From: Rhodoferax sp.
GTDB taxonomy: Bacteria; Pseudomonadota; Gammaproteobacteria; Burkholderiales; Burkholderiaceae_C
Reading direction: 5' to 3'
Length of the DNA: 64,000 nucleotides
Assembly: GCF_013297935.1 (NCBI RefSeq)
Contig: NZ_JAAFIX010000001.1
Coordinates: 452,334 to 516,333, forward strand
The position numbers and the translations under genes were made by a program. Below, piece after piece: positions 1-60,447 of this stretch (the first letter of the stretch is position 1; each line of letters starts with the position of its first letter). A model generated the notes under the pieces. It had not been told where the DNA came from, made no database searches, and saw only the letters and a program-made list of their open reading frames with translations.

Positions 1-2841
1 AGTCACCGTGCTCAGATTCAGGCTGCGTGCAGCATTGACGCGGGTGCTGCCTGCGCTTTGCACCAGGGCGCCCATGAGTTCTACGTCGCGCCCGGCGCTG
101 GCGACCAGGGTGCCGGCATCCCCCGTGACGTACAGGCCCGCGACCCGGCTGATGTCGGTGGAGTGGGTTTGCAGGCCAGTGCCGCCACCCGCGCCCCCGA
201 CCGAGCCCAGCATGCCACCGCCCGATGCAGCGGGTGCGCTGGCCTGGGCTGGCGCGCCGCTGCGGCTCTCCAGCGTGGTGGTTTGCACCAAGATGTCGCG
301 CCCGGCGGTGGCCGAGAGGCTGGTTTTGGCGATGACGGCGCCGCCGATGTTCTCAATGTCCTGGGTGGCGGTGAGGTTGACTTCCTTGCCTTCGATGCGG
401 CCCGCCAGGTTGCGCACGTTGGTGGCGTTCAGGGTTACGAGTTCGCGGCCTTGGATCGTGGCGCTGCTGTTGCTGATGTCGCCGGTGGTGCTGAGGTTGA
501 CGATGTTGCCTGACATGACACCGCCCAAGAGCGCGCCGTTGGCGGCCAGGTCGCCGCTGCGGGCCACGGCATACACCTGGGGCACCAAGACCTTTTGGGT
601 ACTGCCGTCCGCCAGCGTGACTTCTTGTTGCACCAGCCAGACGATGTCGCTGGTGAGGCTGGCGACTTGTTCGGCGGTCAGCGCGATGCCTACGCGCAGG
701 TTCAGGGGCTGCGCCAGGGTGACGCCGGCGGTCATCAGGGCCTGGTATTGCTGTTCGTCAGAGCTGTAATTAGCCAGGCGGGCATACCCGGTCAGGCGCG
801 CCACTTGTTCGTTGACCAGGCGCTGCTCGTAGAAGCCGTCTCCCATGCGTTTTTGGGTGATGTCGGGGTCTGCGCTCAGGGCTTGCAGCATGAAGTCCGA
901 GCTCAGCCAGATTTGTTTGTTGGTGAAGGCGGGATTGGTCTCGATCAGGTAGCTGGCATTGCTGCTGGCGGCAAACAGGGCGGAGTTGGGCGTGGTAGTG
1001 GTGCTGGGGGTGGTGCTGCGGCTTTGCGTCACAGCCGGGCCTATGGTCTGGTTGCGGGCGATGAGGTCGGTGCTGGTGGTGGTGCGCCAGCGGCGTTCAG
1101 AGTGGCAATTCCAGGGGCAATCCAGACCGTTTTCCATGTAGGTCACCACAACGGTGTTGGCACGGCGGGTGGCGACCTGGTCTGTCAGGTCTATGCCCCG
1201 GTTTTGCAGCGCGGCGCTGCCAGTGGCGTTGACGGTACCTGCGGCGAGGATTTTGCTGCTGCTGTTGAGCGCGCTGGTGCTGGCGTCCAGCACCATGTCT
1301 GCGCCAGAGCGGATGATGGCTTCGCCATTGGGCCCGGCAATGGCGACTGCCCGGTAGTAGGTGTCCACCCACGTGTGGGTGCAATCGCCCCCACAGTCTG
1401 CACTGCCATTGGTGGCAGGGGTGTTGGGGTCCACCTCGGTCCGGTAGCTCAGGCTGCTGTAGGTGTTGGCAAGGGTCTGTGTGCTAACCGTGACGTTGCC
1501 TGCGGCCTCCAGCGTGGCACTGTTGTTGGTCACGGTAGTGGCGCGGCCTGTGGCCTGGCCGTTTGCATCCAAGGCGCCGCCAATGGCCAGCGCGCCGGCG
1601 CTGTAGATCAGCGCGCCTTCTTGGTTGTTGAGCGTGGTCACGCCAATATCCACCCGGCCTGCGCTGTCGCGTGCGGCGATGGCGGGGGCCGTGTCCGTGG
1701 CACTCGCTGCGGCGTTATTCAGGGTGGTGGCGGCAATGGCCACGCTGCCGCCATAGATGGCTCCACCCGTGCTGTTGTTGACCGTGGCAGCGTTGATGCG
1801 GGTGGTGGCCGTGCTGTTGAGCGTGCCGGTGTTGGTGAGTTGGCCGTCAGCACTCAGGGTGAAACTGCCTGCGTTGGCTTGCAGGCTGCCTGCGTTGTTG
1901 ACGCCTGCACCCTGCCCTGTGGCCAGGATGGTGATTTTGTTGGCATACATGCCGCCTATGGCTGCGACATCAATGGCCACAGCCCCTGCACTGCCGCTGC
2001 TGTTGTCTGCAGTCACGCGCAGGTCCTGGGCGTGGACCGCCCCTTGCAGGATGATTTTTTGTGCCTGGAGCTTGGTGATGCCGGTGGTGGCCGTGTCCAG
2101 CCCGCTGCCGCTGACAGTGAGGGTGCCGCCGTTCACCTGGTAACCGGTGAGGGTGTTGCCGCTGAACTGGGGGGTGCCGGTCGTCAGCGTGGCGCCGCTG
2201 GCGTTGATGAAGCCGCCGCCGTTCACGCTGATGCCTGCCGGGTTGGCGATGACGACTTCGGCCTTCTGGCCGGCAACTTCAATGTAGCCGCGCAGCTGGC
2301 TGGGATTGGTGGAGCTGACTTCGTTGAGGATGATGCCCGCACTGCCCGAGGCCAGATTGGGGTTGCCTGCCACCCAGCCGCCCAGCTGGGTGTTGCTGTT
2401 GACGGCGGCGTTGTTGAGGATGAGGCCGCTGCTGCCTACGTCGAACTGGGTGTAGCGGTTGCGGCTGACACCATTGACCGCGCCTGTGATGTTGACCTGC
2501 GTGACGCCGCTGGCGGTGTTGGTCAAATTGGGCCGCTGGGCCGCCGGTGCTGCGCCATTGACGACGATGGTGGTGGTGGCTGGTGTTGTTTGCGCCCATG
2601 CGGCCGGAGTAAGCCAGGCCGGGGGCGCCAGGATGGCTATTGCCACTACTATGGATTTGATAGCTGCTCGCGCAATGTCTATCTGGGCTGGAGGGTGATT
2701 GGATGCTGAAACACCAGCTCCGCGGGTGGCTGTACCTTCATTCTGGCCTGGGCCGCCACTGTGGCTGCTGGACACCTCCGACACCGCCACACTAAAGCCT
2801 CTGGCTGCGTTGAAGACGAGGCGATACAAGTCTTTATTCAT
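1..2841 (-). CDS. Two-partner secretion exoprotein, CdiA/FhaB-like (3' end off window)
   Basis: A single minus-strand frame stays open from an ATG at 2841 to the left edge (947 codons, no stop seen where I translated it). It starts with an extended signal peptide region (MNKDLYRLVFNAARG...), then a hydrophobic stretch and an AWAQ cleavage site near residue 85. A haemagglutination/TPS secretion domain follows, with NPNL and NPAGI motifs typical of TpsA proteins. Around residues 620-680 it has the block seen in CdiA-type proteins (YLIETNPAFTNK, then GDGFYEQRLV). The rest is Ser/Thr/Asn/Ala-rich beta-helix repeat. It is exported by the TpsB encoded 16 nt upstream and displayed on or released from the surface. 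Whether it is an adhesin or a contact-dependent inhibition toxin depends on the C-terminus, which is outside the window. Confidence 0.88.
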   Translation of the reverse strand, partial: MNKDLYRLVFNAARGFSVAVSEVSSSHSGGPGQNEGTATRGAGVSASNHPPAQIDIARAAIKSIVVAIAILAPPAWLTPAAWAQTTPATTTIVVNGAAPAAQRPNLTNTASGVTQVNITGAVNGVSRNRYTQFDVGSSGLILNNAAVNSNTQLGGWVAGNPNLASGSAGIILNEVSSTNPSQLRGYIEVAGQKAEVVIANPAGISVNGGGFINASGATLTTGTPQFSGNTLTGYQVNGGTLTVSGSGLDTATTGITKLQAQKIILQGAVHAQDLRVTADNSSGSAGAVAIDVAAIGGMYANKITILATGQGAGVNNAGSLQANAGSFTLSADGQLTNTGTLNSTATTRINAATVNNSTGGAIYGGSVAIAATTLNNAAASATDTAPAIAARDSAGRVDIGVTTLNNQEGALIYSAGALAIGGALDANGQATGRATTVTNNSATLEAAGNVTVSTQTLANTYSSLSYRTEVDPNTPATNGSADCGGDCTHTWVDTYYRAVAIAGPNGEAIIRSGADMVLDASTSALNSSSKILAAGTVNATGSAALQNRGIDLTDQVATRRANTVVVTYMENGLDCPWNCHSERRWRTTTSTDLIARNQTIGPAVTQSRSTTPSTTTTPNSALFAASSNASYLIETNPAFTNKQIWLSSDFMLQALSADPDITQKRMGDGFYEQRLVNEQVARLTGYARLANYSSDEQQYQALMTAGVTLAQPLNLRVGIALTAEQVASLTSDIVWLVQQEVTLADGSTQKVLVPQVYAVARSGDLAANGALLGGVMSGNIVNLSTTGDISNSSATIQGRELVTLNATNVRNLAGRIEGKEVNLTATQDIENIGGAVIAKTSLSATAGRDILVQTTTLESRSGAPAQASAPAASGGGMLGSVGGAGGGTGLQTHSTDISRVAGLYVTGDAGTLVASAGRDVELMGALVQSAGSTRVNAARSLNLSTVT
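2649..2696 (+). repeat. 48-nt dispersed element, copy A
   Basis: This copy matches the 48-nt element without gaps: ACTAT at its start, ATAGC at element positions 13-17, CGCGCA at 22-27 and GGGCTGG near the end. It lies antisense within the 5' part of the TpsA gene and encodes its hydrophobic signal segment (about residues 49-64). Only part of the stem pairs perfectly, since the first base is A, not G. Confidence 0.6.
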
Positions 2842-9032: not shown

Positions 9033-11273
9033 ATGAGCGAGACAAGCCACCCCGTGCAGACCCACCACCGTATTTGCCCCTTGTGCGAAGCCTGCTGCGG
9101 GCTGGAGATCAAGGTGCAAGACCAAAAGGTCATCAGCATCCGCGGCCACGAGGCTGATGTGCTGAGCCGGGGCTACATCTGTCCCAAGGCGATTGCCCTC
9201 AAAGACCTGCACGAAGACCCCGACCGCCTGCGCGCCCCGCTGATCAAGCGCAATGGCCAACACGAACCCGCGACCTGGGAAGAAGCCTTTGCCGAGATCG
9301 AGAAGCGCCTCCCGCCCCTGATGGCAACCCACGGCAAACACGCGGTCGCCATGGCGGTGGGTAACCCTTCTGCCCACAAAATCGGCCTGCTCACCTATTT
9401 CGGCAAGCTGGCGCGCGCCATCGGCAGCCGCAATGTGTTTTCAGCCTCCACTCTGGACCAGATGCCCAAGCAGCTAGCTAGCGGCCTGATGTTTGGCCAC
9501 TGGCTCTCCACCGCCCTGCCCGACATCAGCCGCACCGATTTGCTGGTAGTCATAGGCGCCAACCCGCTGGCCAGCAACGGCAGCATGTGGACCGTGCCCG
9601 ACTTCAAGGGCAAAGCCAAAGCGCTGCAGGCCCGGGGCGGCCAGCTCATCGTGATTGACCCGCGCCGCACCGAAACGGCGGCCGTGGCCGATGCGCACCA
9701 CTTCATCCGCCCGGGGGCCGACGTGTTTTTGCTGGCGGCCATGGTGCAGGTGCTGTTTGCCGAAAACCTGGTGAACCTGGGACGCGTGGCGCCATGGGTG
9801 CAAGGCGTTGAAGAGGTGCGCACAGCGGTGGCCGGCTTCACGCCTGAAGCTGCGGCGTCTCGTTGCGGCATGCCGGCCGACACCATCCGCGCGCTAGCGC
9901 GCCAGATTGCCAGCACGCCCAAAGCGGCGGTGTATGCCCGCATAGGCACTTGCACCCAGCAGTACGGCACATTGGCCAGCTGGCTGGTGGATGTGCTCAA
10001 CACCCTGACCGGCCACCTCGACATGGAAGGCGGCATGCTGTTTGCCAAGTCGGCCGCCTTTGCCAGCAACACCGTGGGCAAACCGGGCGTGGGCAAAGGC
10101 GTGAGCACCGGCCGCCACCATGCCCGCGTGAGCGGTGCACCCGAGGTGTATGGTGAGTTGCCCATGACCTGCATGGCCGAAGAAATAGAAACACCTGGCG
10201 AAGGCCAGGTGCGTGCCTTGATTACCGTGGCCACCAACCCTGTGCTCTCCAGCCCGGACGGCCCGCGCCTCGCCAAGGCGCTGGACTCGCTGGACTTTAT
10301 GGTGAGCCTGGACATTTACCTGAACGAAACCACCCGCCATGCAGACGTGATCTTGCCCGGCCTCTCGCCGCTCGAAGACTTGCACTACGACGTGGCCTTC
10401 CCCCAGCTCTCGTGGCGCAACCACGCGCGCTACAGCGCACCGGTGTTGCCCCGCCCCGAGGGCCAACCTGAAGAGTGGCAAACCCTGCTCAAGCTCACCG
10501 CCATCGTGCAAGGCCAAGGCGCCGGGCAGGATGCCAACCTGCTGGACGACCAGCAGTTTGCCGACGACGCCGACCGCCTGTTCGGCCCGCATGCAGCTGC
10601 GGTGATAGCGGCAACTAATGGCTTACGCGGCCCGCAGCGCGGCCTGGATGTAGCGCTGCGCAGTGGCCCCTACGGCGACCAGTTCGGCTTGAAGCCCAAG
10701 GGTCTGAACCTGCAGAAAGTGATGGCCGCCAGCGACAGCGGCGGCATTGACCTGGGTGACCTGCAGCCCCGCATTCCCGAAATGCTGCGCACCCCCAGCG
10801 GCAAGGTAGAGCTTGCACCACCCCTTTTGCTACAAGATTTAGAGCGCGCTGCGCAGGATCTACAAGGGCTAGCGCCCGATTTGGTCATTATCGGCCGGCG
10901 TGATGTGCGCACCAACAACAGCTGGATGCACAACCTGCCCACGCTCGCCAAAGGCCCCTTCCGCTGCTCCGCGCTGGTTCACCCGGCCGATGCCGCACGC
11001 CACGGTGTGCAAGACGGTGCCATGGCCACCCTGCGCAACGGTCACCGCAGTGTGCAAGCCCAAGTGCAGTTCAGCACCGACATGATGCCCGGCGTGGTCA
11101 GCTTGCCGCACGGTTGGGGCCACAACCTGCCGGGCGCGCAACTGCGGGTGGCGGCGGAGCGCCCCGGCGCCAACATCAATGCCCTGCTGGACGACCAACT
11201 GCGCGACCCGCTCTCGGGCAATGCGGTGCTGGGCGGCGTGGCCATCACCATGGAGCCAGCCGCTACGGCCTGA
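9033..11273 (+). CDS. Molybdopterin oxidoreductase (formate dehydrogenase/assimilatory nitrate reductase type)
   Basis: This is a 746-residue catalytic subunit of the DMSO-reductase superfamily. The N-terminus carries a [4Fe-4S] motif, CPLCEACC followed by C in GYICPKA, spaced C-x2-C-x3-C then about 40 residues to the last Cys. Next come the molybdopterin domains (for example VVIGANPLASNG and DPRRTETA) and the C-terminal dinucleotide-binding domain (GHRSVQA to the end). There is no Tat signal, so it is probably cytoplasmic. The ATG at 9033 is the start; the open frame extends further upstream, but without homology. No small subunit, FdhD or cofactor genes are nearby, so the substrate is unknown. 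A copy of the 48-nt element lies in frame at 10829-10876. Confidence 0.87.
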   Translation: MSETSHPVQTHHRICPLCEACCGLEIKVQDQKVISIRGHEADVLSRGYICPKAIALKDLHEDPDRLRAPLIKRNGQHEPATWEEAFAEIEKRLPPLMATHGKHAVAMAVGNPSAHKIGLLTYFGKLARAIGSRNVFSASTLDQMPKQLASGLMFGHWLSTALPDISRTDLLVVIGANPLASNGSMWTVPDFKGKAKALQARGGQLIVIDPRRTETAAVADAHHFIRPGADVFLLAAMVQVLFAENLVNLGRVAPWVQGVEEVRTAVAGFTPEAAASRCGMPADTIRALARQIASTPKAAVYARIGTCTQQYGTLASWLVDVLNTLTGHLDMEGGMLFAKSAAFASNTVGKPGVGKGVSTGRHHARVSGAPEVYGELPMTCMAEEIETPGEGQVRALITVATNPVLSSPDGPRLAKALDSLDFMVSLDIYLNETTRHADVILPGLSPLEDLHYDVAFPQLSWRNHARYSAPVLPRPEGQPEEWQTLLKLTAIVQGQGAGQDANLLDDQQFADDADRLFGPHAAAVIAATNGLRGPQRGLDVALRSGPYGDQFGLKPKGLNLQKVMAASDSGGIDLGDLQPRIPEMLRTPSGKVELAPPLLLQDLERAAQDLQGLAPDLVIIGRRDVRTNNSWMHNLPTLAKGPFRCSALVHPADAARHGVQDGAMATLRNGHRSVQAQVQFSTDMMPGVVSLPHGWGHNLPGAQLRVAAERPGANINALLDDQLRDPLSGNAVLGGVAITMEPAATA
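10829..10876 (+). repeat. 48-nt dispersed element, copy D
   Basis: This is a gapless 48-nt match with GCTAC at the start, TGCGCA at positions 22-27 and AAGGGCTAGCG at the end. It lies inside the molybdopterin oxidoreductase gene, on its coding strand, where it encodes a linker-like stretch (LLQDLERAAQDLQGLA). The hairpin stem is only partly paired here. Confidence 0.6.
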
Positions 11274-13350: not shown

Positions 13351-13959
13351 TCAGTCTGCCGGTGCGGCATCTGCAAGGTCTATCCAGACGACTTGCCCGC
13401 TGCCGGCGTCGTTCAAGCGAGCCACCAGAGCGGGGGCAGCATGGGCAGGCAGCGCAAACGCCAGCTCCACCCGCTCACCGTGTTGCACCTCGCCCAAGGT
13501 AGCACCGGCGGCTTCGAGTTCTCGGCGCACCCGGCCTTCCAGCGGGTATGGCACCGCGCATTGAAGCGCCAGCATTTTCACAATAGCCACCTTTTCGACC
13601 TGCAACAAAGCCTGTGCCACCGTGTCGGTATAGGCCCGCACCAGCCCGCCCGCACCCAGGTTCACCCCGCCGTAGTAGCGCACTACCGTTGCGAGCACGC
13701 CTTCCAGATCCTGGTGGCGCAATACATCGAGCATGGGGCGCCCGGCGGTGCCACTGGGCTCGCCATCGTCCACCGCCGCGGAGTGGCCGCCCGCCATCAA
13801 GGCCCAGCACACATGCGTGGCCGTCGGGTGGGCAGCCCACAAGTCCGCCACCACTTTTTGCGCCGCAACGCGGTCCGCCACCGGTTGTACACAGCCGAGG
13901 AAGCGGCTCTTTTTAATCAGTAGTTCGCTGTGCGCCGGTGCGGCTAGGGTGTGAGGCAT
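13351..13959 (-). CDS. yigZ: YigZ/IMPACT-family protein (UPF0029)
   Basis: This 202-residue protein is of normal length for YigZ. Residues about 10-115 form the IMPACT/UPF0029 domain, with the motif DDGEPSGTAGRPML followed by VVRYYGGVNLGAGGLVRAY. The C-terminal ferredoxin-like domain is shorter and more divergent. The biochemical role is unclear; eukaryotic IMPACT affects translation control via GCN1. The stop lies close to the convergent MAPEG gene. A 48-nt element copy lies just upstream, between this gene and tetR. Confidence 0.87.
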   Translation of the reverse strand: MPHTLAAPAHSELLIKKSRFLGCVQPVADRVAAQKVVADLWAAHPTATHVCWALMAGGHSAAVDDGEPSGTAGRPMLDVLRHQDLEGVLATVVRYYGGVNLGAGGLVRAYTDTVAQALLQVEKVAIVKMLALQCAVPYPLEGRVRRELEAAGATLGEVQHGERVELAFALPAHAAPALVARLNDAGSGQVVWIDLADAAPAD

Positions 13960-13972
13960 TTGAATAAAACCA

Positions 13973-14020
13973 TGCTCTAGCCCTTGTATTGATTGTGCCA
14001 GCAGCTATAAAAATAGGAGC
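13973..14020 (-). repeat. 48-nt dispersed element, copy E (intergenic)
   Basis: Read on the minus strand, this is a gapless 48-nt match with GCTCC at the start, ATAGCTGC at positions 13-20 and ACAAGGGCTAG at the end. It nearly fills the 63-nt gap between the efflux repressor (stop at 14023) and yigZ, both on the minus strand. It may end or attenuate the repressor transcript, though its stem is imperfect (GCTCC against ATAGC). Confidence 0.6.
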
Positions 14021-14022
14021 AA

Positions 14023-14649
14023 TCAACTTGCTGCGGGTGTCTTCAGACCATCCAGGTAGGCGTCCAGCGCGGCCAAGCCTACGGCTTCGAGGTCAAAGGC
14101 CTGCGGGTCCAGCAGCCAGTTGTATTTGAGCCCGCCGATCAGGGCAAACATGCCCAGAGTGGCGGTGCGTATGTCCATCTCGCGGCGCATGTAGCCTTTG
14201 TCTTTGGCGATCTGCATCAGGCGGTGCATATCGTCGATGCACTCATTGCGGCCGGCGATTTGTCGCTCGCGCAGGTTTTGTAGCTCGTCGACATATTCCA
14301 CCTTTTGGGTGGCAATCTCAAACACGCGGCGCACCTGGGGGTCGTTGGCAATGGTGTGCAAAGCGGCCGCGGTGTTGCGGCGAATCTTCTCCATCGGGCG
14401 CTCTTCGTCCTGCGGGGTGATCTCGGTCATGCGGGCCATCATGGGCAGGGTGACCCGCTCCATCATGGCGTGAAAAAGCTCGCCTTTGTTTTCGAAATGC
14501 CAGTAAATGGCACCACGGGTCAGGCCCGCGTCTTTGGCAATTTCTTGCAGCGAGGTGCGCGACACCCCGCGCTGGTGAAACACACGTTCAGCAGCGTCAA
14601 GTATCAATTCACGGGTGGCGAGGGCGTCTTCTTTGGTTTTGCGGGCCAT
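14023..14649 (-). CDS. acrR: TetR-family efflux repressor (AcrR/TtgR-like)
   Basis: This 208-residue protein has an N-terminal TetR HTH (about residues 10-60: LILDAAERVFHQRGVSRTSL...GAIYWHFENKGELF). It matches the AcrR/TtgR/MexR2 group. The ligand domain (about 80-205) would bind drugs or phenolics. It is divergent from the RND efflux operon, and a perfect palindrome of AcrR type lies in between. It should repress the pump and itself until an inducer binds. Confidence 0.9.
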   Translation of the reverse strand: MARKTKEDALATRELILDAAERVFHQRGVSRTSLQEIAKDAGLTRGAIYWHFENKGELFHAMMERVTLPMMARMTEITPQDEERPMEKIRRNTAAALHTIANDPQVRRVFEIATQKVEYVDELQNLRERQIAGRNECIDDMHRLMQIAKDKGYMRREMDIRTATLGMFALIGGLKYNWLLDPQAFDLEAVGLAALDAYLDGLKTPAAS

Positions 14650-19100: not shown

Positions 19101-19257
19101 CGGCGTGATCGGCGGCATGGTGGCGGGCACCATCCTCGCGGTGTTCTTTGTGCCCATCTTCTTTGTGGTGGTGCGCAGCATCTTCAAAGGCAGCGAACGC
19201 CAACACCAGTTCGACGTACAACACGGACACCAGATCGGAGCCGAATCCCATGAGTAA
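16102..19257 (+). CDS. acrB: RND multidrug efflux pump, HAE1 family (AcrB/TtgB-like)
   Basis: This 1051-residue proton-driven pump starts MAQFFINRPIFAWVLS and has the twelve-TM, two-large-loop architecture of AcrB. The proton-relay pair Asp407-Asp408 is present at the usual AcrB numbering (in GIVVDDAIVVVEN). The TM10 Lys is seen in LSAKNAILIIEFAKDL. It exports hydrophobic drugs, dyes and solvents from the periplasm or inner leaflet. The C-terminus is hydrophilic. The last 8 nt overlap the channel gene, implying translational coupling. Confidence 0.96.
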   Translation: MAQFFINRPIFAWVLSLFIMVMGGVAITQLPISQYPPVAPPAIVVNVAYPGASAQALEDSVLSVIEREMNGASGLIYMESVSQANGSGTLTLTFETGTNADLAQVDVQNRLARATPRLPAAVTQQGVRVDKSRSNFLLFTMLATDNPDTSTIELGDYASRNIVPELQRLPGIGQAQLFGTERAMRIWLDPAKLASFNLSTAEVNAAISAQNAQVSAGAIGDLPNITGQGIAATVVVSGQLGSVAQFGNIALRSNADGSAVRLKDVARIELGAQAYSTSARLNGKPAIGIGVQLSPSGNAMAAAKAVRARMTELEAYFPQGMKWSIPYDSSRFVNISIKQVAQTLVEAVVLVFLVMFLFLQNWRYTVIPTIVVPIALLGTFGTLLALGMSINVLTMFGMVLVIGIVVDDAIVVVENVERIMSEEGLPPLEATKKAMGQISGAIIGVTVVLIAVFVPLAFFAGSVGNIYRQFSTVMVASIAFSAFLALSLTPALCATLLKPVVAGHAHASTGFFGWFNRRFTSTAKGYESVVQRLLKKAGRYLVVYVAIIGAVAVVYMRLPTSFLPAEDQGNIIVNVQLPPGATQQRTTSVMEQVEGFILKQPDVESMVAVIGFSFSGQGQNAALGFVTLKDWSERQGPGQSAQALAGRAFGALMGIRDAFIFPLSPPPIPELGNASGFTFRLQDRSGKGRDALLAARNQMLGMASKSKVLTQVRPDGLEDAPQLQIDIDRDKASALGVSFSAINNTISTALGSSYVNDFPNQGRLQRVVVQADATARMQPDDILKFNVINTSGKAVPLSAFASTRWANGAMQTVRYNGYSAIRISGSAAPGFSTGEAMAEMEKLASQLPPGFGFEWTGQSREEKLAGSQATILYAFAILAVFLCLAALYESWSIPLSVILVVPLGVLGVVLATLFRGYANDVYFQVGLITIIGLSAKNAILIIEFAKDLQAQGKTAVQAALMAAHLRFRPIVMTSLAFILGVLPLAISSGAGSASQRAIGTGVIGGMVAGTILAVFFVPIFFVVVRSIFKGSERQHQFDVQHGHQIGAESHE

Positions 19258-20668
19258 GCACTCTTTTGCACGCCCGGCCCTGCGCCTGGCCACCCTGTCG
19301 GCGGCCCTGTGGCTGGTGGGTTGCAGTTTTATCCCGACCATGAGCCGCCCGGCGGCGCCGGTGCCCGCTACCTTTGCCGATGTGCCGGCAGCGCCGGCCG
19401 GCGCGCGCGCTGCTGCAGATATTGAGTGGCAAAGCTTCTTCAAAGACGCGCGCCTCAAGCGCCTGATTGAACTGTCTTTGGAAAACAACCGCGACCTGCG
19501 CGTGGCGGCCCTCAACATCGACGCCACCCGCGCCAAACTGCAAGTGGCGCGCGCCGACCAGCTGCCCACGGTGAACGCCGGCATCAACGGCAGCCGTGGC
19601 CCGGCTGCCAGCGGCGCCATCACCAGCAGCTACACCGCAGGCCTGAGCGTGACCTCCTATGAGCTGGACTTTTTTGGCCGTGTGCGCGCGCTCAGCCAAG
19701 CGGCCCAGTCGCAACTGCTGGCGACCGAAGAAGCCCGCAAGACCGTGCAGATCAGCCTGATTGCGTCGGTAGCCAACACCTACCTCACGCTCTTGGCCGA
19801 CGACGAGCTGCTGCGCGTGACCCGCGAGACCCTCAAGACTCGGCAAGAGAGCCTGCGCCTGATGCAGCTCAAGTACGACAACGAAGCCGCCTCCAAACTG
19901 GACCTGAGCACCGCCCAGAGCCAGCTTGAAGCTGCCAAGGTATCGCTGGCCCAGCAAACCCGCCAACGCGCACAAGACGAGAGCTCGCTGGGGCTGCTGG
20001 TGGGTCAGGCTTTGCCGGCCGATCTGCCTGCCGGCCTGAGCCTCGCGGAACAAGGCTTTTTGAGCGACTTGCCCGCCGGTGTGCCGTCGGAGTTGCTGGT
20101 GCGCCGCCCTGATGTGCGCCAGGCCGAGCAAAACCTGCTGGCTCTGAACGCCAACATCGGTGCAGCACGTGCGGCCTTCTTCCCGCGCATCACGCTCACC
20201 GCCAGCGCAGGGGTTGCCAGCAACGACCTGGAGCAACTGTTTAGCAACGGCACCAGCGCCTGGACCTTTGTGCCCCAGTTGCTGATGCCCATCTTCGATG
20301 CGGGCCGCAACAAAGCCAACTTGGAAGCAGCCAAGGTGAACAAAGACATTGCCATCGCCCAGTACGAAAAGGCCATTCAAACCGGCTTCAAGGAAGTGGC
20401 CGATGCACTGGCCGGCCGCGCCACCCTGGGCGACCAACTGCAAGCCCAGACCGCCCAGCTCGCCGCTACCCAGACCACCATGCAACTGACCGACCTGCGC
20501 TTCAAAGCCGGTGCAGCCAGCTCGTTTGATGTGCTGGAGGCTCAACGCTCTTTGTTCGCAGCCCAACAGGCACAAGTGCAGGTGCAAACCCAGCAACTGC
20601 AGAACCTGGTGACCCTGTACAAGGTGCTGGGTGGCGGGTGGACGGAAACAGCTGCAGAGCCAAAATAA
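19250..20668 (+). CDS. oprM: RND efflux outer-membrane channel lipoprotein (OprM/TtgC-like)
   Basis: This 472-residue TolC-family protein has a lipobox (LVGC at about 22-25), unlike TolC itself but like OprM. Two outer-membrane efflux repeats follow (about 60-250 and 280-465), with conserved stretches such as YELDFFGRVRALS and LLVRRPDVRQAEQNL. The ATG at 19250 overlaps the end of the pump gene by 8 nt and gives a good lipoprotein signal, so the longer frame from 19148 is rejected. It forms the trimeric exit duct. A copy of the 48-nt element serves as its terminator. Confidence 0.93.
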   Translation: MSKHSFARPALRLATLSAALWLVGCSFIPTMSRPAAPVPATFADVPAAPAGARAAADIEWQSFFKDARLKRLIELSLENNRDLRVAALNIDATRAKLQVARADQLPTVNAGINGSRGPAASGAITSSYTAGLSVTSYELDFFGRVRALSQAAQSQLLATEEARKTVQISLIASVANTYLTLLADDELLRVTRETLKTRQESLRLMQLKYDNEAASKLDLSTAQSQLEAAKVSLAQQTRQRAQDESSLGLLVGQALPADLPAGLSLAEQGFLSDLPAGVPSELLVRRPDVRQAEQNLLALNANIGAARAAFFPRITLTASAGVASNDLEQLFSNGTSAWTFVPQLLMPIFDAGRNKANLEAAKVNKDIAIAQYEKAIQTGFKEVADALAGRATLGDQLQAQTAQLAATQTTMQLTDLRFKAGAASSFDVLEAQRSLFAAQQAQVQVQTQQLQNLVTLYKVLGGGWTETAAEPK

Positions 20669-20679
20669 TAGTCAAATCG

Positions 20680-20727
20680 GGGCCTAGCCCCCGTAGATAC
20701 TGCGCAAACAGCTCCTAATTTAGGAGC
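20680..20727 (-). repeat. 48-nt dispersed element, copy F (perfect stem)
   Basis: Read on the minus strand, this copy begins GCTCC, with GGAGC at positions 13-17 (a perfect 5-bp stem), TGCGCA at 22-27 and GGGGGCTAGG at the end. It lies 12 nt after the oprM stop. Its stem region overlaps the hairpin that ends the efflux operon. This is the clearest case of compensatory change in the element family (GCTCC/GGAGC, against GCTAT/ATAGC in copy K). Confidence 0.7.
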
Positions 20728-20735
20728 TGTTTTTG
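20706..20735 (+). terminator. Rho-independent terminator of the efflux operon
   Basis: AAACAGCTCCTAA (20706-20718) pairs with TTAGGAGCTGTTT (20720-20732), with a run of five T overlapping the stem end (20730-20734). The hairpin is built on copy F of the 48-nt element. It lies about 40 nt after the oprM stop. The convergent higA stops at 20822. Confidence 0.75.
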
Positions 20736-23933: not shown

Positions 23934-24857
23934 TCAGTCCACTGCAATCCGGGTTTCTTGGAGGGCCACCGGCAGGGCCGGGGTGATCATGTTGCCGCGG
24001 CCGAGCGCCCCGCCGGGCATGGCGCCAGGCGCCAGCACATAGGCCGTGCGGGCGCCGGACAGCACATAGCCATCGCCATAGGGCTTGAGCACCGGCTTGG
24101 GGCCCGCTGCTTGCGATGTGAACGGTTTGGCGGGCACCGGTGGTTTGAGCGCGGCGTAGAGCTCGGTAACGGTAGCCACGTAGTTCTGGGTTTCTTTGTA
24201 GTTGGGCACTTTGTTGCCCGCCTTTTGCACCGCACCCTCGCCTGCGTTGTAAGCCGCAAGTGCCAAATCGGTGCGGCCGGGGAACATGTCGAGCAACAAG
24301 CGCAGATAGCGCGCACCAATGCCGACGTTGATCTTGGGGTCCGCCAGCTTGGCTTCTACCGACATCCAGCGGTCGCTGTCCACACCGAAGCGGCGGGCCG
24401 TGTCGGGCATGACCTGCATGAGCCCGATAGCGCCTTTGGGCGACACTGCGGTAGGCTCAAAGCCGGACTCGGTGGTGACCAGCGCCTTGAGCAGCTCGTA
24501 GTCCAACCGGTATTTGCGCGCGGCCTCTTGCAGCAAGGGATGGGCTTTGCGGTAGCGCGACGAGTTGTCAAAAAAAGCTGCCAACTTGGGGGACAGCTCG
24601 GGCGACACCTCCGCTGCCTCGGGTGCCGCTGCTTGCGGGGCAGCGGCCTCGGCCCCTGACCTCAAGCCACGGATAGAGGCGCGAAAAAACAGGGTGTAGC
24701 GCTCGTCAGTTTGCTCGGCGGAAAAATGCGTCTGCCCCTGCGGGTCCACATACACCCAGACGTCTGCTTTTGCATCAAAAGCAGCAGTAGCCCCCGCCAA
24801 TATTGCGCAAGCAGCTACTATTTTCATAGCAAAAGAAAACCGGGCGCGAGACGACAT
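23934..24857 (-). CDS. Lytic transglycosylase, SLT domain
   Basis: This 307-residue exported protein starts MSSRARFSFAMKIVAACAIL. A signal peptide is followed by a DUF4124-like N-terminal segment (VWVYVDPQGQTHFS), then an SLT domain (about 125-235). The catalytic Glu is in TTESGFEPTAVSPKGAIGLMQVMP, with the AYNAGEGAVQK motif downstream. It cleaves peptidoglycan, forming 1,6-anhydromuramic ends. It lies between parE (stop at 24860) and parC (11 nt), so the three are probably cotranscribed. The signal-peptide core is encoded by a copy of the 48-nt element. Confidence 0.9.
   Translation of the reverse strand: MSSRARFSFAMKIVAACAILAGATAAFDAKADVWVYVDPQGQTHFSAEQTDERYTLFFRASIRGLRSGAEAAAPQAAAPEAAEVSPELSPKLAAFFDNSSRYRKAHPLLQEAARKYRLDYELLKALVTTESGFEPTAVSPKGAIGLMQVMPDTARRFGVDSDRWMSVEAKLADPKINVGIGARYLRLLLDMFPGRTDLALAAYNAGEGAVQKAGNKVPNYKETQNYVATVTELYAALKPPVPAKPFTSQAAGPKPVLKPYGDGYVLSGARTAYVLAPGAMPGGALGRGNMITPALPVALQETRIAVD
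24783..24830 (-). repeat. 48-nt dispersed element, copy G
   Basis: Read on the minus strand, the element begins GCTAT, with GTAGCTGC at 13-20, TGCGCA at 22-27 and GGGGGCTAC near the end. It is sense to the lytic transglycosylase gene and encodes MKIVAACAILAGATA, the hydrophobic core of the signal peptide. The stem pairs with one G-U. Confidence 0.7.
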
Positions 24858-34832: not shown

Positions 34833-37832
<3,000 letters not shown>

Positions 37833-49986: not shown

Positions 49987-50787
49987 TCAGGCTAGGCTGG
50001 CCACACGGCCCGCCTTGATACCCGCCGCACTGGCGCGGGCCAGAAACTCTTGTACTGCGGTTTCGAAACCCGTCACCGGGCTCATGCAATCGGTCAACAG
50101 CACGGTACCCTGCAGGCGGGCTGCAGGCAGCGTGTCGATCAGGTCCGCGACCGAGGCTGCCACGCAGTGACTGGAGGCCTCGCCCGCTATCAAAAGAGTA
50201 GCGCCTTGCGCAGATAAAGCTTGGATCAAGGGCTTATTGAGCAATGAACGGGCATCATCCGCACGCGGTACCTCGGCTTTGAAGGCGCTGTACTGCTCGG
50301 TCAACGGGTTCTGGCCTTTGAGCACCTTGTTCACTATTTGGCCAGTCGCGAGCTCCCAAGCGGCCAGCGCCTCGCTCAAACCGCTGTGAATGTTGTGGCC
50401 CCAAGTCCCCAGCACACAGTGCACCGGCCAGACCACCAACTGGCGCTGACCGCTCGCCTCCAGGGCCTGCAAATAGGCGTGCACTTCGCCAAGCAAAGCC
50501 GGGTTGCGGGGCCGGTAGTCGCCGCGCGCCAGCTCCGCTGCCGTGATGACGGTGAACGGCGCCACCGCCGCGCCGTCAGCCCGCAGCCAGAACGTGGTGC
50601 GCTCCACGCCCACACTGGCGTGAGAATCCAGAGTCACCGTGATGCTGCGCACCTGGGCGGCATGCGGCACCAGCCAATCGGCCAGACGCTGCATATCGGC
50701 AGCGGCACCGGGCACCGGCAACGCAGCGCCGGGAATATCCAGAAAATCGTTTTGCGGATCGATGATGAGCAGGTCGTACAGGTTCAT
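49987..50787 (-). CDS. Isochorismatase/nicotinamidase-family cysteine hydrolase
   Basis: This 266-residue protein starts MNLYDLLIIDPQNDFLDIP. It has the family triad: Asp in DPQNDF, Lys in NKVLKGQN, Cys in GEASSHCVAAS. The HWP-like metal site is plausible but I did not pin it down. Nicotinamidases deamidate nicotinamide to nicotinate. A copy of the 48-nt element lies antisense at 50186-50236, encoding ALSAQGATLLIAG. The longer frame from 50982 would overlap queG. Confidence 0.85.
   Translation of the reverse strand: MNLYDLLIIDPQNDFLDIPGAALPVPGAAADMQRLADWLVPHAAQVRSITVTLDSHASVGVERTTFWLRADGAAVAPFTVITAAELARGDYRPRNPALLGEVHAYLQALEASGQRQLVVWPVHCVLGTWGHNIHSGLSEALAAWELATGQIVNKVLKGQNPLTEQYSAFKAEVPRADDARSLLNKPLIQALSAQGATLLIAGEASSHCVAASVADLIDTLPAARLQGTVLLTDCMSPVTGFETAVQEFLARASAAGIKAGRVASLA
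50186..50236 (+). repeat. 48-nt dispersed element, copy I (with a short insertion)
   Basis: GCTATCAAAAGAGTAGC matches the element start, with the stem pairing with one G-U. TTGCGCAGAT follows at positions 21-30, and AAGGGCT at the end. The spacing to the end is about 7 nt longer than in other copies. It is antisense within the nicotinamidase-like gene. Confidence 0.5.
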
Positions 50788-51928: not shown

Positions 51929-52426
51929 GACCCGATTGTAGAAAGCGCGGCCCCCGGCATCTTGCTGGAGTGGGCCGATGAATCTGACACCGCCGCCTTT
52001 GCGGCCCGGTGGGCCGGCACGCCAGCCCTGGCCAATGCCTTCGTGGCCCTGCATGGCGACCTCGGAGCCGGCAAGACCACCCTGGTGCGGCATCTGCTCC
52101 AAGCCTTGGGCGTGACGGGCCGCATCAAAAGCCCGACCTATGCGGTGGTGGAGCCCTACGAACTGCCCGCGCTGAATATCTGGCACTTTGACTTTTACCG
52201 CTTCAACGACCCGCGCGAGTGGGAGGAAGCCGGTTTCCGCGACATTTTTGCCAGCCCCGGTCTCAAGCTGGCCGAGTGGCCCGAGAAGGCCGCCGGCATG
52301 TTGCCGCCCGCCGATGTGAACCTGTATTTGCACACCCTGGACGACCACCGGCGCCGGGTACGCCTCGTCGCCACCACGCCTGCGGGCCAGCAACTCGTGG
52401 AAGCGGCCCAAGGAGCCGGGGCTTGA
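51881..52426 (+). CDS. tsaE: tRNA threonylcarbamoyl adenosine biosynthesis ATPase TsaE
   Basis: The family domain has the P-loop HGDLGAGKTTLVRHLLQAL, then KSPTYAVVEPY and a Trp/Asp-rich C-terminal half. TsaE hydrolyses ATP in the TsaBDE complex making t6A in tRNA. The start is uncertain: a GTG at 51881 and a TTG at 51908 are options with no clear ribosome site. The 5' end overlaps divergent queG. amiC follows, overlapping by four bases (TTGA). Confidence 0.9.
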   Translation: MVAIELSFDLSAVDRHDPIVESAAPGILLEWADESDTAAFAARWAGTPALANAFVALHGDLGAGKTTLVRHLLQALGVTGRIKSPTYAVVEPYELPALNIWHFDFYRFNDPREWEEAGFRDIFASPGLKLAEWPEKAAGMLPPADVNLYLHTLDDHRRRVRLVATTPAGQQLVEAAQGAGA

Positions 52427-53817
52427 AGCGCCGCACCCTGCTGCAAGCTGGTAGCCTGGTGTTGACGCTGGGTGCTGCCGAGCTGGCCAAGGGCGCTGCC
52501 ATCATGACCGTGCGAGTGTGGCCTGCGCCTGAGTATTCGCGGGTGACCATTGAGTCCGACTCCGCGCTCAGCGCCAAGCAGCTGTTTGTGCCCAACCCGC
52601 CCCGGCTGGCGGTGGATATTCAGGGCATTACCCTGAACCCTGCGCTCAAAGAGCTGGTGGCCAAGGTCAAGGCTGATGACCCGAATATTGCGGGCATCCG
52701 GGTCGGGCAGTTCACCCCGGACATCGTGCGCCTGGTGGTGGACCTGAAGCACCCCATCCGGCCGCAGGTGTTTAGCCTGGCACCCGTGGCGGCCTACCAG
52801 CACCGGTTGGTTCTGGACCTCTACCCGGTGGCCGAAGTCGACCCGCTCGACACCCTGATTGCCGATCGCGCCAACGAAGCCAAAGCGGCCCAGCCCGCTA
52901 AGCCGGTGGCGCAAGACCCGCTGGAGGCGCTGATCGCACAGCACACGCAGCGCCCTGCCGCTCCGGCCCCTGCGGCCAGCGCCAGTGTCCGGCCGGGTGA
53001 CGCTATCAAAACAGGAGCTGCTCGCGCAGATTCTGCAGGGGCTAGCGGCACAAAAGATGCTCAAACACCGGATAAATCGGGCACCAGCACCGACCGGCTG
53101 ATCATCATTGCCCTGGACCCCGGCCACGGCGGCGAGGACCCCGGCGCCATCGGCCCCGGCGGCACCCGTGAAAAAGATGTGGTCCTGAAGCTGGCGCACC
53201 TGCTGCGCGAGCGCATCAATGCCGCCAGTGTGAATGGCAATGCCATGCGGGCGTTCCTGACGCGGGATGCGGACTTTTTTGTGCCCCTCGGCACCCGGGT
53301 TCAAAAGGCGCGGCGGGTGCAAGCAGACTTGTTCATCAGCATCCATGCCGATGCATTTTTTACGCCCGACCCCCAGGGTGCCAGCGTCTTTGCGCTGAGC
53401 CAGGGCGGAGCCACCAGCAGTGCGGCGCGCTGGATGGCAGCCAAAGAAAACAAGGCCGATTTGATTGGCGGCCTCAATGTCAAAGCCAAAGATGCCACCG
53501 TCCAGCGGGCTTTGCTCGACATGAGCACCACGGCTCAAATTAACGACAGCTTGAAACTGGGTGGCAACCTGCTGGGCGAAATCAAGCGCGTGGGCAAGCT
53601 GCACAAACCACGGGTTGAGCAAGCCGCTTTTGCGGTGCTCAAGGCGCCCGATATTCCGAGCGTGCTGGTGGAGGCAGCCTTCATCAGCAACCCCAGCGAA
53701 GAGGCCAAGCTCAATAGCGAGGCCTACCAGAACCAGCTGGCCGACGCCCTGATGCGCGGTATTGAAAGCTACTTCGCCAAAAACCCGCCGCTGGCCCGCA
53801 ACCGCACCACCAGCTAA
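52423..53817 (+). CDS. amiC: N-acetylmuramoyl-L-alanine amidase (AmiC-like, Tat-exported)
   Basis: This 464-residue protein starts with TTG at 52423, preceded by AAGGAG at 7-nt spacing; the frame continues upstream but without homology. The N-terminus KRRTLLQAGSLVLTLGAAE carries a twin-arginine signal, as in E. coli AmiA/AmiC. An AMIN domain (about 30-150) targets the septum. The Amidase_3 domain (about 225-455) has DPGHGGEDPGAIG, SIHADAF and EAAFISN. It splits septal peptidoglycan. The linker contains a copy of the 48-nt element. Confidence 0.93.
   Translation: MKRRTLLQAGSLVLTLGAAELAKGAAIMTVRVWPAPEYSRVTIESDSALSAKQLFVPNPPRLAVDIQGITLNPALKELVAKVKADDPNIAGIRVGQFTPDIVRLVVDLKHPIRPQVFSLAPVAAYQHRLVLDLYPVAEVDPLDTLIADRANEAKAAQPAKPVAQDPLEALIAQHTQRPAAPAPAASASVRPGDAIKTGAARADSAGASGTKDAQTPDKSGTSTDRLIIIALDPGHGGEDPGAIGPGGTREKDVVLKLAHLLRERINAASVNGNAMRAFLTRDADFFVPLGTRVQKARRVQADLFISIHADAFFTPDPQGASVFALSQGGATSSAARWMAAKENKADLIGGLNVKAKDATVQRALLDMSTTAQINDSLKLGGNLLGEIKRVGKLHKPRVEQAAFAVLKAPDIPSVLVEAAFISNPSEEAKLNSEAYQNQLADALMRGIESYFAKNPPLARNRTTS
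53002..53049 (+). repeat. 48-nt dispersed element, copy J
   Basis: This is the clearest copy: GCTATCAAAA at its start, GGAGCTGC at 13-20, CGCGCA at 22-27 and GGGGCTAGCGG at the end. It is sense and in frame in amiC, encoding AIKTGAARADSAGASG in the Ala/Pro linker between the AMIN and amidase domains. Confidence 0.75.
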
Positions 53818-58398: not shown

Positions 58399-60447
58399 GT
58401 GAACGCACCACTCTCCCCCGCCCCCCGCCGCCCCATCCGTGAACTCCCCGACGAACTCATCAGCCAGATTGCGGCCGGTGAGGTTGTGGAGCGCCCCGCC
58501 AGTGTGGTGCGCGAGCTGGTGGACAACGCGCTCGACGCCGGTGCCACCCAAGTCACCCTGCGCTTGCTGGCCGGTGGTGTGCGCCTCATCAGCGTGGAAG
58601 ACGACGGCCAAGGTATCTTGCGCGACGAGCTGCCCATTGCCTTCAAACGCCACGCCACCAGCAAGATCGGCAACCTGCGCGACCTGGAGAGCGTGGGCAC
58701 TATGGGCTTTCGGGGTGAGGCGCTAGCCGCTATCAATTCAATAGCTGACTGCGCGATATTGTCGAGGGCTAGCGGCCTGAATGATGCCTATTTGCTCGAC
58801 GGCCGCACCGGCGAGCTGCGCCCGGTGGCCCGCAACACCGGCACCACGGTAGAAGTGAAAGAGCTGTTCTACAGCACCCCCGCGCGCCGCAAGTTCCTCA
58901 AAACGGACGCCACCGAGCTCGCGCACTGCATCGAATCCGTGCGCCGCCACGCGCTGGCCCGCCCTGACGTGGGCTTTGCCATCTGGCACGAAGGCAAGTT
59001 GATAGAGCAATGGCGCCGCTGCCTCGACATGCCCTTGGCAGACGCCCCCCTGGACGCAGCTCTCGCCGCACTGGACCAGCGCCTCAGCGACGTGCTGGGC
59101 CCCGAGTTTCTAGCCCAGAGCGTGCGGGTGGACTGGCACAGCAGCCAAGCCAATGAATTCGGCCAACCCGCCCTGCGGGTCTGGGGCCGCGCCGGCGTGC
59201 CCGACGCTGCCCGCTCGCGCGGCGACCAACAGTTTTGCTACGTGAACGGCCGCTTTGTGCGCGACAAAGTGCTGACCCACGCCGCCCGCAGCGCCTATGA
59301 AGACGTGCTGCACGGCAACCGCCAGCCGGTCTACGCCCTGTATGTGGCCATGGACCCCACGCGGGTGGACGTGAACGTGCACCCCACCAAAATCGAAGTG
59401 CGCTTCCGCGACAGCCGCGAAGTCCACCAAGCCGTGCGCCACGCCGTAGAAGACACCCTGGCCGCCCCCCGCGCCATTACCGCCGCCGGCACCGTGGCCG
59501 GCCAAGCCCAAGCGCCCAGCCTGTTTGGCACCACCAGCGAAACCGGCGCACTGCCCTCCCCCGGCATTTATGTGCCAAATAGGCCTGTAGCCCCCATGTA
59601 CAGTGCGCAACCCGCTATTAAATTTGAATCAAACGAGGGCCTGATAGGCCACCGCGTCAACGACATGAGCCAGCTCTGGCAGCGCAACCCAGCCACCCAA
59701 GACGGCTGGGTGGCTGCGGGCTCTGCGCAGGTCAAGGGGGAGCCCGCGCAGCGGGCGGAGGACACGGAGCAGAGCGCGCAGCCACTCAGCCGTCTAGCCA
59801 GCGAAGAAGCCTGGCCTACCGGCCGCGATGGCAACGAAAACGCTTGGCCCCTGGGCCGCGCGATTGCCCAGCTGCAAGGCGTCTACATCCTGGCCGAAAA
59901 CGCCCAAGGCCTAGTCGTCGTCGACATGCACGCCGCCCACGAACGCATCGTCTACGAACGGCTGAAAAACCAAATCAACCTCACCGCCCCCGACGGCAGC
60001 GTGCACCCACTGGCCAGCCAGCCCCTGCTGATCCCCGCCACCTTTGCCGCCACCCCCGACGAAGTCGCCACCGCCGAGGCTCACGTCGCGACCCTCAACA
60101 CCCTGGGCCTGGAAATCAGCCCCTTCTCCCCCAAAACCCTGGCCGTGCGCGCCGTGCCCACCACCCTGGCACAAGGCGACGCGGTGGAACTGGCCCGCAG
60201 CGTGCTGGCCGAGCTGGCGCAACACGACGCCAGCACCGTCATCCAGCGCGCACAAAACGAGATTCTGGGCACCATGGCCTGCCATGGCGCCGTGCGCGCC
60301 AACCGCAAACTCACCCTCGAAGAAATGAACGCGCTCTTGCGCGACATGGAAGCCACCGAGCGCAGCGACCAGTGCAACCACGGCCGCCCCACCTGGCGCC
60401 AGGTGACACTCAAAGAGCTGGATGGGCTGTTTCTGCGCGGGCGCTGA
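58399..60447 (+). CDS. mutL: DNA mismatch repair protein MutL
   Basis: This 682-residue protein starts with GTG at 58399. The N-terminal GHKL ATPase has LISQIAAGEVVERPASVVRELVDNALDAG, EDDGQGI and GFRGEALAAI, plus the MutL transducer domain. The C-terminal dimerisation domain (about 480-682) has LVVVDMHAAHERIVYERLK and a final CNHGRPTWRQ motif. It links MutS to downstream repair. Two copies of the 48-nt element lie inside: one in the ATPase, one in the linker. The linker (about 360-470) is low complexity. Confidence 0.96.
   Translation: MNAPLSPAPRRPIRELPDELISQIAAGEVVERPASVVRELVDNALDAGATQVTLRLLAGGVRLISVEDDGQGILRDELPIAFKRHATSKIGNLRDLESVGTMGFRGEALAAINSIADCAILSRASGLNDAYLLDGRTGELRPVARNTGTTVEVKELFYSTPARRKFLKTDATELAHCIESVRRHALARPDVGFAIWHEGKLIEQWRRCLDMPLADAPLDAALAALDQRLSDVLGPEFLAQSVRVDWHSSQANEFGQPALRVWGRAGVPDAARSRGDQQFCYVNGRFVRDKVLTHAARSAYEDVLHGNRQPVYALYVAMDPTRVDVNVHPTKIEVRFRDSREVHQAVRHAVEDTLAAPRAITAAGTVAGQAQAPSLFGTTSETGALPSPGIYVPNRPVAPMYSAQPAIKFESNEGLIGHRVNDMSQLWQRNPATQDGWVAAGSAQVKGEPAQRAEDTEQSAQPLSRLASEEAWPTGRDGNENAWPLGRAIAQLQGVYILAENAQGLVVVDMHAAHERIVYERLKNQINLTAPDGSVHPLASQPLLIPATFAATPDEVATAEAHVATLNTLGLEISPFSPKTLAVRAVPTTLAQGDAVELARSVLAELAQHDASTVIQRAQNEILGTMACHGAVRANRKLTLEEMNALLRDMEATERSDQCNHGRPTWRQVTLKELDGLFLRGR
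58729..58776 (+). repeat. 48-nt dispersed element, copy K
   Basis: The copy begins GCTAT with ATAGC at 13-17 (a perfect 5-bp stem), then CTGCGCG near 21-27 and AGGGCTAGCGGC at the end. It is sense in mutL and read in the same frame as copy J. It encodes AINSIADCAILSRASG directly after the conserved GFRGEAL motif. Confidence 0.7.
59583..59630 (-). repeat. 48-nt dispersed element, copy L
   Basis: Read on the minus strand, this copy has AATAGC at 12-17, TTGCGCA at 21-27 and GGGGGCTAC at 36-43. The first five bases do not match, so the stem is not formed. It lies antisense in the mutL linker. Confidence 0.5.

Follow-up and report, generated by a model that had tools for sequence, protein, structure and literature searches.

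The 64,000-nucleotide stretch of Rhodoferax DNA analyzed here (the window) carries ten copies of a dispersed element that recurs throughout the genome. We read this element, with a probability of roughly 85%, as a genome-wide recognition site of about 65 bp in duplex DNA, which appears to be written in codons within genes, lies also in spacers and in either orientation, and would be kept at each copy individually. Its most probable role is, by analogy, that of a self-DNA uptake/recombination signal of the USS or DUS kind; to the reading as a whole, with this role included, we give somewhat less than even odds. The motif is abundant and old and overrides codon choice in genes such as mutL. Literature searches for the repeat, or for uptake sequences in these bacteria, turned up no description of it.

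The window holds ten copies of a 65-bp element

An earlier note on this DNA had proposed ten copies of a 48-nt repeat. In the 64-kb window all ten were borne out at their coordinates, and an HMM based on 63 copies from beyond the window recovered each of them (10/10), with E-values from 8.5e-14 to 1.2e-5. The weakest, at 50186, scored 21.4 bits with this window-free model, in excess of the top score of 12.9 bits reached in 20 first-order Markov shuffles of the window. The proposed length had to be revised, as the unit measures about 65 bp, with information extending from 1 base before position 1 to about 16 past position 48. The copies are listed below with their bit scores from the window-free model.

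Copy 1, 2647..2711, plus strand: antisense in the called gene 1-2841 (minus strand); 39.8 bits
Copy 2, 10828..10892, plus strand: within a molybdopterin oxidoreductase gene, 9033-11273 (plus strand); 35.9 bits
Copy 3, 13957..14021, minus strand: fills the gap between gene 13351-13959 (minus strand) and a TetR/AcrR-type gene, 14023-14649 (minus strand); 36.3 bits
Copy 4, 20664..20728, minus strand: 3' end of an efflux outer-membrane gene, 19250-20668 (plus strand), in a convergent gap; 47.4 bits
Copy 5, 24767..24831, minus strand: 5' end of a lytic transglycosylase gene, ORF 23934-24857 (minus strand); 46.8 bits
Copy 6, 35223..35287, plus strand: antisense in coaBC, ORF 34833-36104 (minus strand); 31.5 bits
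Copy 7, 50185..50225, plus strand: left part only, antisense in a gene with a weak isochorismatase-like match; 21.4 bits
Copy 8, 53001..53065, plus strand: in frame, in the AMIN-amidase linker of amiC, 52423-53817 (plus strand); 43.7 bits
Copy 9, 58728..58792, plus strand: in frame, in the ATPase domain of mutL, 58399-60447 (plus strand); 38.5 bits
Copy 10, 59567..59631, minus strand: antisense in the variable mutL linker; 42.9 bits

The view of one dispersed family, present in both orientations and with many copies within genes, is supported by these data. Eight copies had been placed in coding sequence, and our calls, which come from a simple home-made gene caller with a coding fraction of 0.88 of the sample, put seven of the ten inside a CDS (2649, 10829, 35224, 50186, 53002, 58729 and 59583) and three outside (13973, 20680 and 24783). 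The copy at 24783 would count as coding if its gene starts at 24857; if the gene starts inside the element, this stretch (24767-24857) would encode a signal-peptide-like transglycosylase start (MKIVAACAILAGATA). The copy at 50186 is genuine, but it is a half copy, its match being limited to the left 40 nt. An eleventh, weak match (58720-58745, minus strand, 16.0 bits) coincides in part with copy 9, at the inverted repeat with which that copy starts. A search of the window against Rfam gave no match, and a blastn search of named phages (INPHARED) with one copy returned just five short matches, with E-values of 0.6 or worse.

Across 79 aligned matches from 464 kb of this genome, information spans element positions 0 to ~64, with the consensus T GCTAY n AAWW nn RTAGC TGCTYGCGCA ... 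GGGCTAGAGGC nn ATTT ... AAA. Positions 3, 15-17 and 24 are near 100% conserved and positions 6, 28 and 58 are at background, an unevenness that is unlike the even decay expected of dead repeats. The information content sums to ~53-55 bits, a figure that is inflated because the aligned copies are selected high scorers.

Copy number and distribution among relatives

As anticipated, copies exist outside the window. With a window-derived model, cmsearch found 75 matches at E ≤ 0.01 in 464 kb of this genome (G000; other G numbers denote relatives, which are called positive or negative when they bear or lack the element), and 65 of the 75 lie in the other 400 kb. Iterated nhmmer gave 79 matches in 464 kb, or 17 per 100 kb, which extrapolates to ~600 copies per 3.61-Mb genome; genome-wide, G000 yielded 1254 candidates, of which 150 were scored, all at E ≤ 1.4e-7.

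The surmise that the element is present in related Comamonadaceae was borne out by a sample of the family, 82 of whose 250 genomes and 49 of whose 126 genera have matches at E ≤ 1e-4; the search model is biased to the G000 dialect, so that absence elsewhere may mean a missed dialect. Named loci that score at least 30 bits include Polaromonas, Curvibacter, Rhodoferax and Xenophilus, and the named RAYT loci of Variovorax, Hydrogenophaga, Ramlibacter and Limnohabitans, each of at most 21 kb, had no match at E ≤ 0.001. The 37 genus members, G000 included, comprise 17 with at least 78 matches, one with 13, three with 1-2 and sixteen with none; the negative congeners G035 and G032 had 0 matches in 200 kb each. 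No match was found in 24 genomes from other families. Another over-represented 9-mer was sought in two negatives, and nothing comparable was seen by eye.

In a FastTree phylogeny of 40 MutL domains (one gene from hand-picked genomes, rooted on two other families, no support values shown), the 26 positives group in a single clade, within which two negative clades of the genus are nested (G028, G035 and G004; G014, G018 and G032); six other negatives fall outside. Because these negative clades nest among positives, the tree suggests that the element was gained once, at an old date, and was probably lost twice within the genus.

Substitution as the probable route of site gain in genes

A mobile unit of the REP or MITE kind, as the earlier note had envisaged, is supported only in part. 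Spread by insertion is not supported in genes: four of the seven coding sites with an alignable element-free ortholog carry no insertion. One coding and one spacer site look insertion-like. The four are mutL 58729, which aligns gap-free over 8 positive (G000 included) and 6 negative congeners; 50186, without a gap across 4 positive congeners and 2 negatives; L047:9404, gap-free against four negatives; and L047:1690, likewise against one negative apart from 3 nt. The insertion-like coding site is L047:16414, where four of four negatives are 27-63 nt shorter than the positives. The remaining two (L043:5306 and L043:10820) are linkers with ambiguous alignments. At the window sites 53002 and 59583, the negatives do not align.

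The mutL core site is the most widely sampled of these. In a protein alignment of 40 MutL domains (match NF000949; 26 positive and 14 negative genomes, two of them from other families), the 16 core codons show no gap in any of the 40 genomes, 14 of which are element-free. The core peptide AAINSIADCAILSRASG is identical in G035 and G004, and every core difference from these two negatives is synonymous (for example GCC/GCT, AAC/AAT, ATT/ATA and CGC/AGG), so that synonymous and in many cases rare codons spell out the site. Only in G160 (L242) does MutL have four additional residues, directly after the core codons; the DNA of this insert reads like the right end of the element, a small insertion-type result.

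Outside the genus, the mutL core site was detected in six of 19 other positive genera (G062, G072, G093, G123, G160 and G168) and not in 13. Of the 18 positive genera whose locus reaches the linker, 16 have the linker site, at a distance of 790-859 nt from the core and on the other strand; it scores at least 19 bits in 11 of them and 14-15 bits in 5, is missing in G085 and G089, and was found in none of eight negatives. This linker site strengthens our overall reading about as much as the insertion-like coding site weakens it. A second, unrelated dispersed repeat of ~50-110 bp is also present in the mutL linker (window 59676-59807); it has many 79-95% identical matches in at least 13 of 16 congeners, including the element-free G018, G032 and G014, and none among the matches listed for G035, G028 and G004.

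Two spacer sites were compared with four negatives each. At L039:16026 the G000 spacer exceeds that of every negative by 46-60 nt, an insertion-like result, and at L039:18923 by just 2-14 nt. Spacers may thus gain sites through insertion or lengthening, and substitution appears as the clearer route within genes. Among known systems, Rickettsia palindromic elements and other MITEs found inside genes (PMC3733652) share with this element the many intragenic copies, nearly all in one frame per orientation. The element differs from them in that MutL is not lengthened at the core site, where codons, and not an insert, form it.

Copies are conserved individually and differ between species

Four window copies between 49.9 and 60.5 kb recur near the same places in every positive congener with covering aligned blocks (50186 in 4 congeners, 53002 in 8, 58729 in 7 and 59583 in 7), and are absent from all negatives compared. 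The 53002 copy scores weakly (~19 bits) in G172 and G029, and a crude lift puts it ~37 nt further on in G026 and G029.

Over 35 ortholog pairs from 14 sites, identity was 0.954 at the 15 positions with more than 1.3 bits, compared with 0.655 at positions below 0.3 bits and 0.714/0.688 in the flanks. The pairs are limited to detected orthologs, which favors conservation, and position 39 is left out of the informative class. At five spacer or edge sites (9 pairs), identity was 0.956, versus 0.462 at low-information positions and 0.634/0.490 in the flanks.

Position 39 is G in 64 of 70 G000 copies and C in 48 of 50 G007 copies. The 35 ortholog pairs comprise 27 G-C and 8 G-G, a concerted change across orthologous sites that indicates a dialect shift; the position is mixed in G001 (4 and 4) and in G020 (2 and 2). 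Further consensus forms occur in other genera, from 6 to 59 first-pass copies each. The arms match in some dialects (CGCGCTTG/CAAGCGCG in G073, AGCCCA/TGGGCT in G149, GCGC/GCGC in G007) and are mismatched in the G000 and G093 consensus.

Positions at least 12 bp apart showed no linkage, with a mean z of 0.06 in G000 (70 copies) and 0.04 in G007 (50 copies). Neither subfamilies nor near-identical copy pairs were found in these two genomes, where mean pair identity was 0.58/0.56 and the maximum 0.84/0.75 (G000/G007); the G007 figures for linkage and identity were computed in a frame offset by 3. The lack of linkage does not by itself exclude mobility, since an old, star-like burst would leave none either. 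Among the 70 G000 copies the arms showed no appreciable covariation: pairs 4-14 and 5-13 form less often than when shuffled, and pair 19-45 is marginal (p 0.03). A- and T-runs swap at positions 8-10 and 52-54. The lack of arm pairing beyond that of shuffled copies and the interchangeable A- and T-runs, together with two overlapping inverted half-site pairs, suggest that duplex DNA is read by a dimeric protein.

Genomic context and codon use

Although 88% of the sample was called coding, the 73 copies with at least 20 bits comprise 35 intergenic, 10 gene-edge and only 28 coding ones. Among 44 non-coding copies with two neighbors, 18 lie in convergent, 25 in tandem and 1 in divergent gaps. Seven of the ten edge copies overlap a gene by 13 or 16 nt and thereby carry its stop codon. 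Coding copies share one frame per orientation in 24 of 28 cases, which we ascribe to the TAG codons that the other frames contain. All 26 coding copies long enough in codons for a comparison use rarer codons inside the element than the gene does outside it, because the motif dictates them; the ATA codon, for example, has a frequency of 46 per 1000 in the element and 2.3 per 1000 in the remainder of the genes.

No regular spacing was detected, the 32 copies in 200 contiguous kb being distributed at random (CV 0.96 vs 0.97). Strand was not linked to GC skew in G007, where 15 of 35 copies in negative-skew and 10 of 24 in positive-skew stretches were on the plus strand. In 464 kb of G000, 56 of 388 CTAG tetranucleotides lie within elements.

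Possible uptake signal or chromosome-organizing site

The DUS of Neisseriaceae and the USS of Pasteurellaceae are the systems to which the uptake reading compares the element. Like these, it has hundreds to thousands of individually conserved copies on both strands, which are over-represented in spacers and permissive coding DNA and differ as species dialects. Formation through point mutation, another trait of DUS and USS, is apparent at four of the seven coding sites compared, with one coding site and one of two spacer sites insertion-like and two coding sites ambiguous. Strong genome-wide over-representation was found here as it is in DUS and USS, as was conservation of each copy against divergent flanks, the latter among detected ortholog pairs only. 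USS are reported to evolve through point mutation and not insertion (PMC7811141), DUS form dialects (PMC3630211), and DUS sit in permissive core DNA, where many of them are argued to arise by recombination (PMC2397512). Within the Comamonadaceae, Acidovorax temperans is reported to be transformed solely by DNA of its own species and Verminephrobacter to bind DNA selectively, without a named signal (PMC4212676).

If the element acts in this way, DNA with a better match would be taken up or recombined more often, and matches would then build up in place through point substitution, a form of molecular drive. Copies would drift jointly into species dialects, mostly in permissive DNA, and sites would erode once a lineage loses the receptor.

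Several observations weigh against an uptake role. The element is ~65 bp long with inverted half-sites, unlike the 9-12 bp core with AT tracts of DUS and USS, and ~53-55 bits, even if inflated, is far beyond the capacity of such a core. ComEC and PilQ are found in positives as well as negatives; a ComEC match is lacking in four positives (G026 at 99% completeness; G012, G020 and G030 at 76-88%), and in the 23 genus members examined no ComEA match exceeds the curated cut-off. The sole ComEA match of G000, below the cut-off, sits in an 880-aa frame. As a switch, ComEC, PilQ and ComEA were each rejected, since none separates positives from negatives. DUS and USS would be expected to be rare in phage and newly acquired DNA; the element has a lower density on phage contigs but is clearly present there, and it occurs on two plasmids, for which drive through uptake offers no obvious explanation. 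The core mutL site was not detected in 13 of 19 positive genera, and the avoidance of divergent gaps (1/44) is typical of REPs too. The in-place reading, for its part, is weakened by the one spacer and one coding site that look inserted.

The main rival, rather unlikely in our estimate, holds that the element is the binding site of a chromosome-organizing or replication/repair protein (a nucleoid protein, condensin, topoisomerase or the like), with ordinary selection maintaining every site. Such a protein would fit a duplex-type motif with palindromic arms in some dialects, such as those of G007 and G149, and the use of both strands without a link to GC skew; copies on phages and plasmids would be expected if any replicon in the cell profits. 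A dispensable system would account better than an architectural site for the absence of the element from two clades within the genus and for the change of a core base in concert, and the random spacing of copies also counts against the latter.

The resident RAYT-type gene

REP/REPIN-like elements are spread by a RAYT (TnpA_REP) transposase, and we consider it improbable that the element arose in this way and later decayed or was domesticated. The two share copy number, a 3'-end or convergent context, the RTAG/GGAG tetranucleotide ahead of an imperfect palindrome and a remnant beside a RAYT gene, and the stop codons supplied by seven of ten edge copies are as described for REPs (PMC3733652). 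The two insertion-like sites, L039:16026 and L047:16414, point the same way. The element differs from REPs in the four tested coding sites without insertion and in its arms, which are unpaired within the genome; recent copies are lacking as well.

A PF01797 match is present in 35 of 37 genus members, positives and negatives alike, mostly as a RAYT-type gene of ~240 aa, which in G000 falls below the NF047646 cut-off. The sole match in G000 is L099:2533-3303 (G000:C23), and the frame downstream of it is, judged by its start, presumably gltB. At the position of Tyr115 in E. coli TnpA_REP, four genomes (G000, G007, G034 and G029) have Phe, G018 has Ser, G006 and G014 have Ala, and the other genomes aligned have Tyr. 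With Phe at this catalytic position, the sole PF01797 match of G000 is unlikely to be a cognate active RAYT. With its C-terminal extension and GGGGTCAGACCC repeats the gene resembles subclass 2.1 TnpA_REP, for which terminal inverted repeats, and not REPs, are reported (PMC6006769).

By visual inspection, all 12 positive loci have a site remnant of the GCTAT type immediately 3' of the RAYT gene, with more than 12 bits in six of them (G000 is not among the six); none of seven loci from genomes with 0-2 matches has such a remnant. This remnant may represent one ordinary spacer site inherited at a single locus. A second RAYT gene in G015 (L116, G015:C65), which has a good element copy on either side, speaks for transposase-driven spread. 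The resident RAYT gene is also present in element-free genomes and its Tyr is replaced in several, so it was rejected as the mobilizer; it is unlikely to mobilize the element at present. As a RAYT/TIRYT-type gene that is kept despite repeated replacement of the Tyr (by F, S or A), it is possibly a domesticated transposase.

Copies on phages and plasmids

A degenerate 27-bp pattern, which occurs 7 times in 464 kb of G000, 9 times in 400 kb of G007 and 0 times in 400 kb of negatives, matched 29 IMG/VR stretches. A first, different viral pattern gave 0 matches and was uninformative, as it was absent from host DNA too. The 29 stretches (L383-L411) contain 35 elements in 266 kb, scoring 17 to 46.7 bits. 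Phage copies lie within or beside genes for primase-helicases (L395 and L404, and adjoining one in L384), a DarB-like antirestriction protein (L386), a terminase small subunit (L387) and an endolysin/ejection-type protein (L393). Plasmid copies were found on one Rhodoferax antarcticus and one Polaromonas plasmid, and no copy on the Verminephrobacter plasmid pVEIS01. Two copies lie amid BREX-2 genes on the Polaromonas naphthalenivorans plasmid pPNAP01 (L413:15005-16412).

Full-strength copies in phage primase-helicase, antirestriction, terminase and ejection/endolysin genes would suit a self/non-self mark that is read by a nuclease or recombination system (Chi-like or defense-evading) and copied by phages to survive. 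We regard this as quite improbable, since just 5 of the 35 phage-contig elements are not pattern matches, which amounts to 5 in 266 kb versus 17 per 100 kb in the host, and an orientation bias was not seen. A hairpin or RNA element was rejected for the lack of arm pairing within the genome and of any Rfam match in the window.

Implications for the Comamonadaceae

Should the genome-wide recognition site prove to be an uptake signal, it could explain the selective transformation reported for Acidovorax and Verminephrobacter, and would place a third family beside the two with known uptake sequences. We propose only tentatively, at odds well under a half, that the Comamonadaceae mark their DNA with an uptake/recombination signal of this kind, a dimer-read site of ~65 bp that would be much longer than those of the two known families, of early origin in the family, divided into dialects, repeatedly lost and carried by phages. 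As an architectural site it would be unusual for both its length and its number. Sister species that have or lack the site, together with species apparently in the midst of a dialect change, make the mechanism directly testable.
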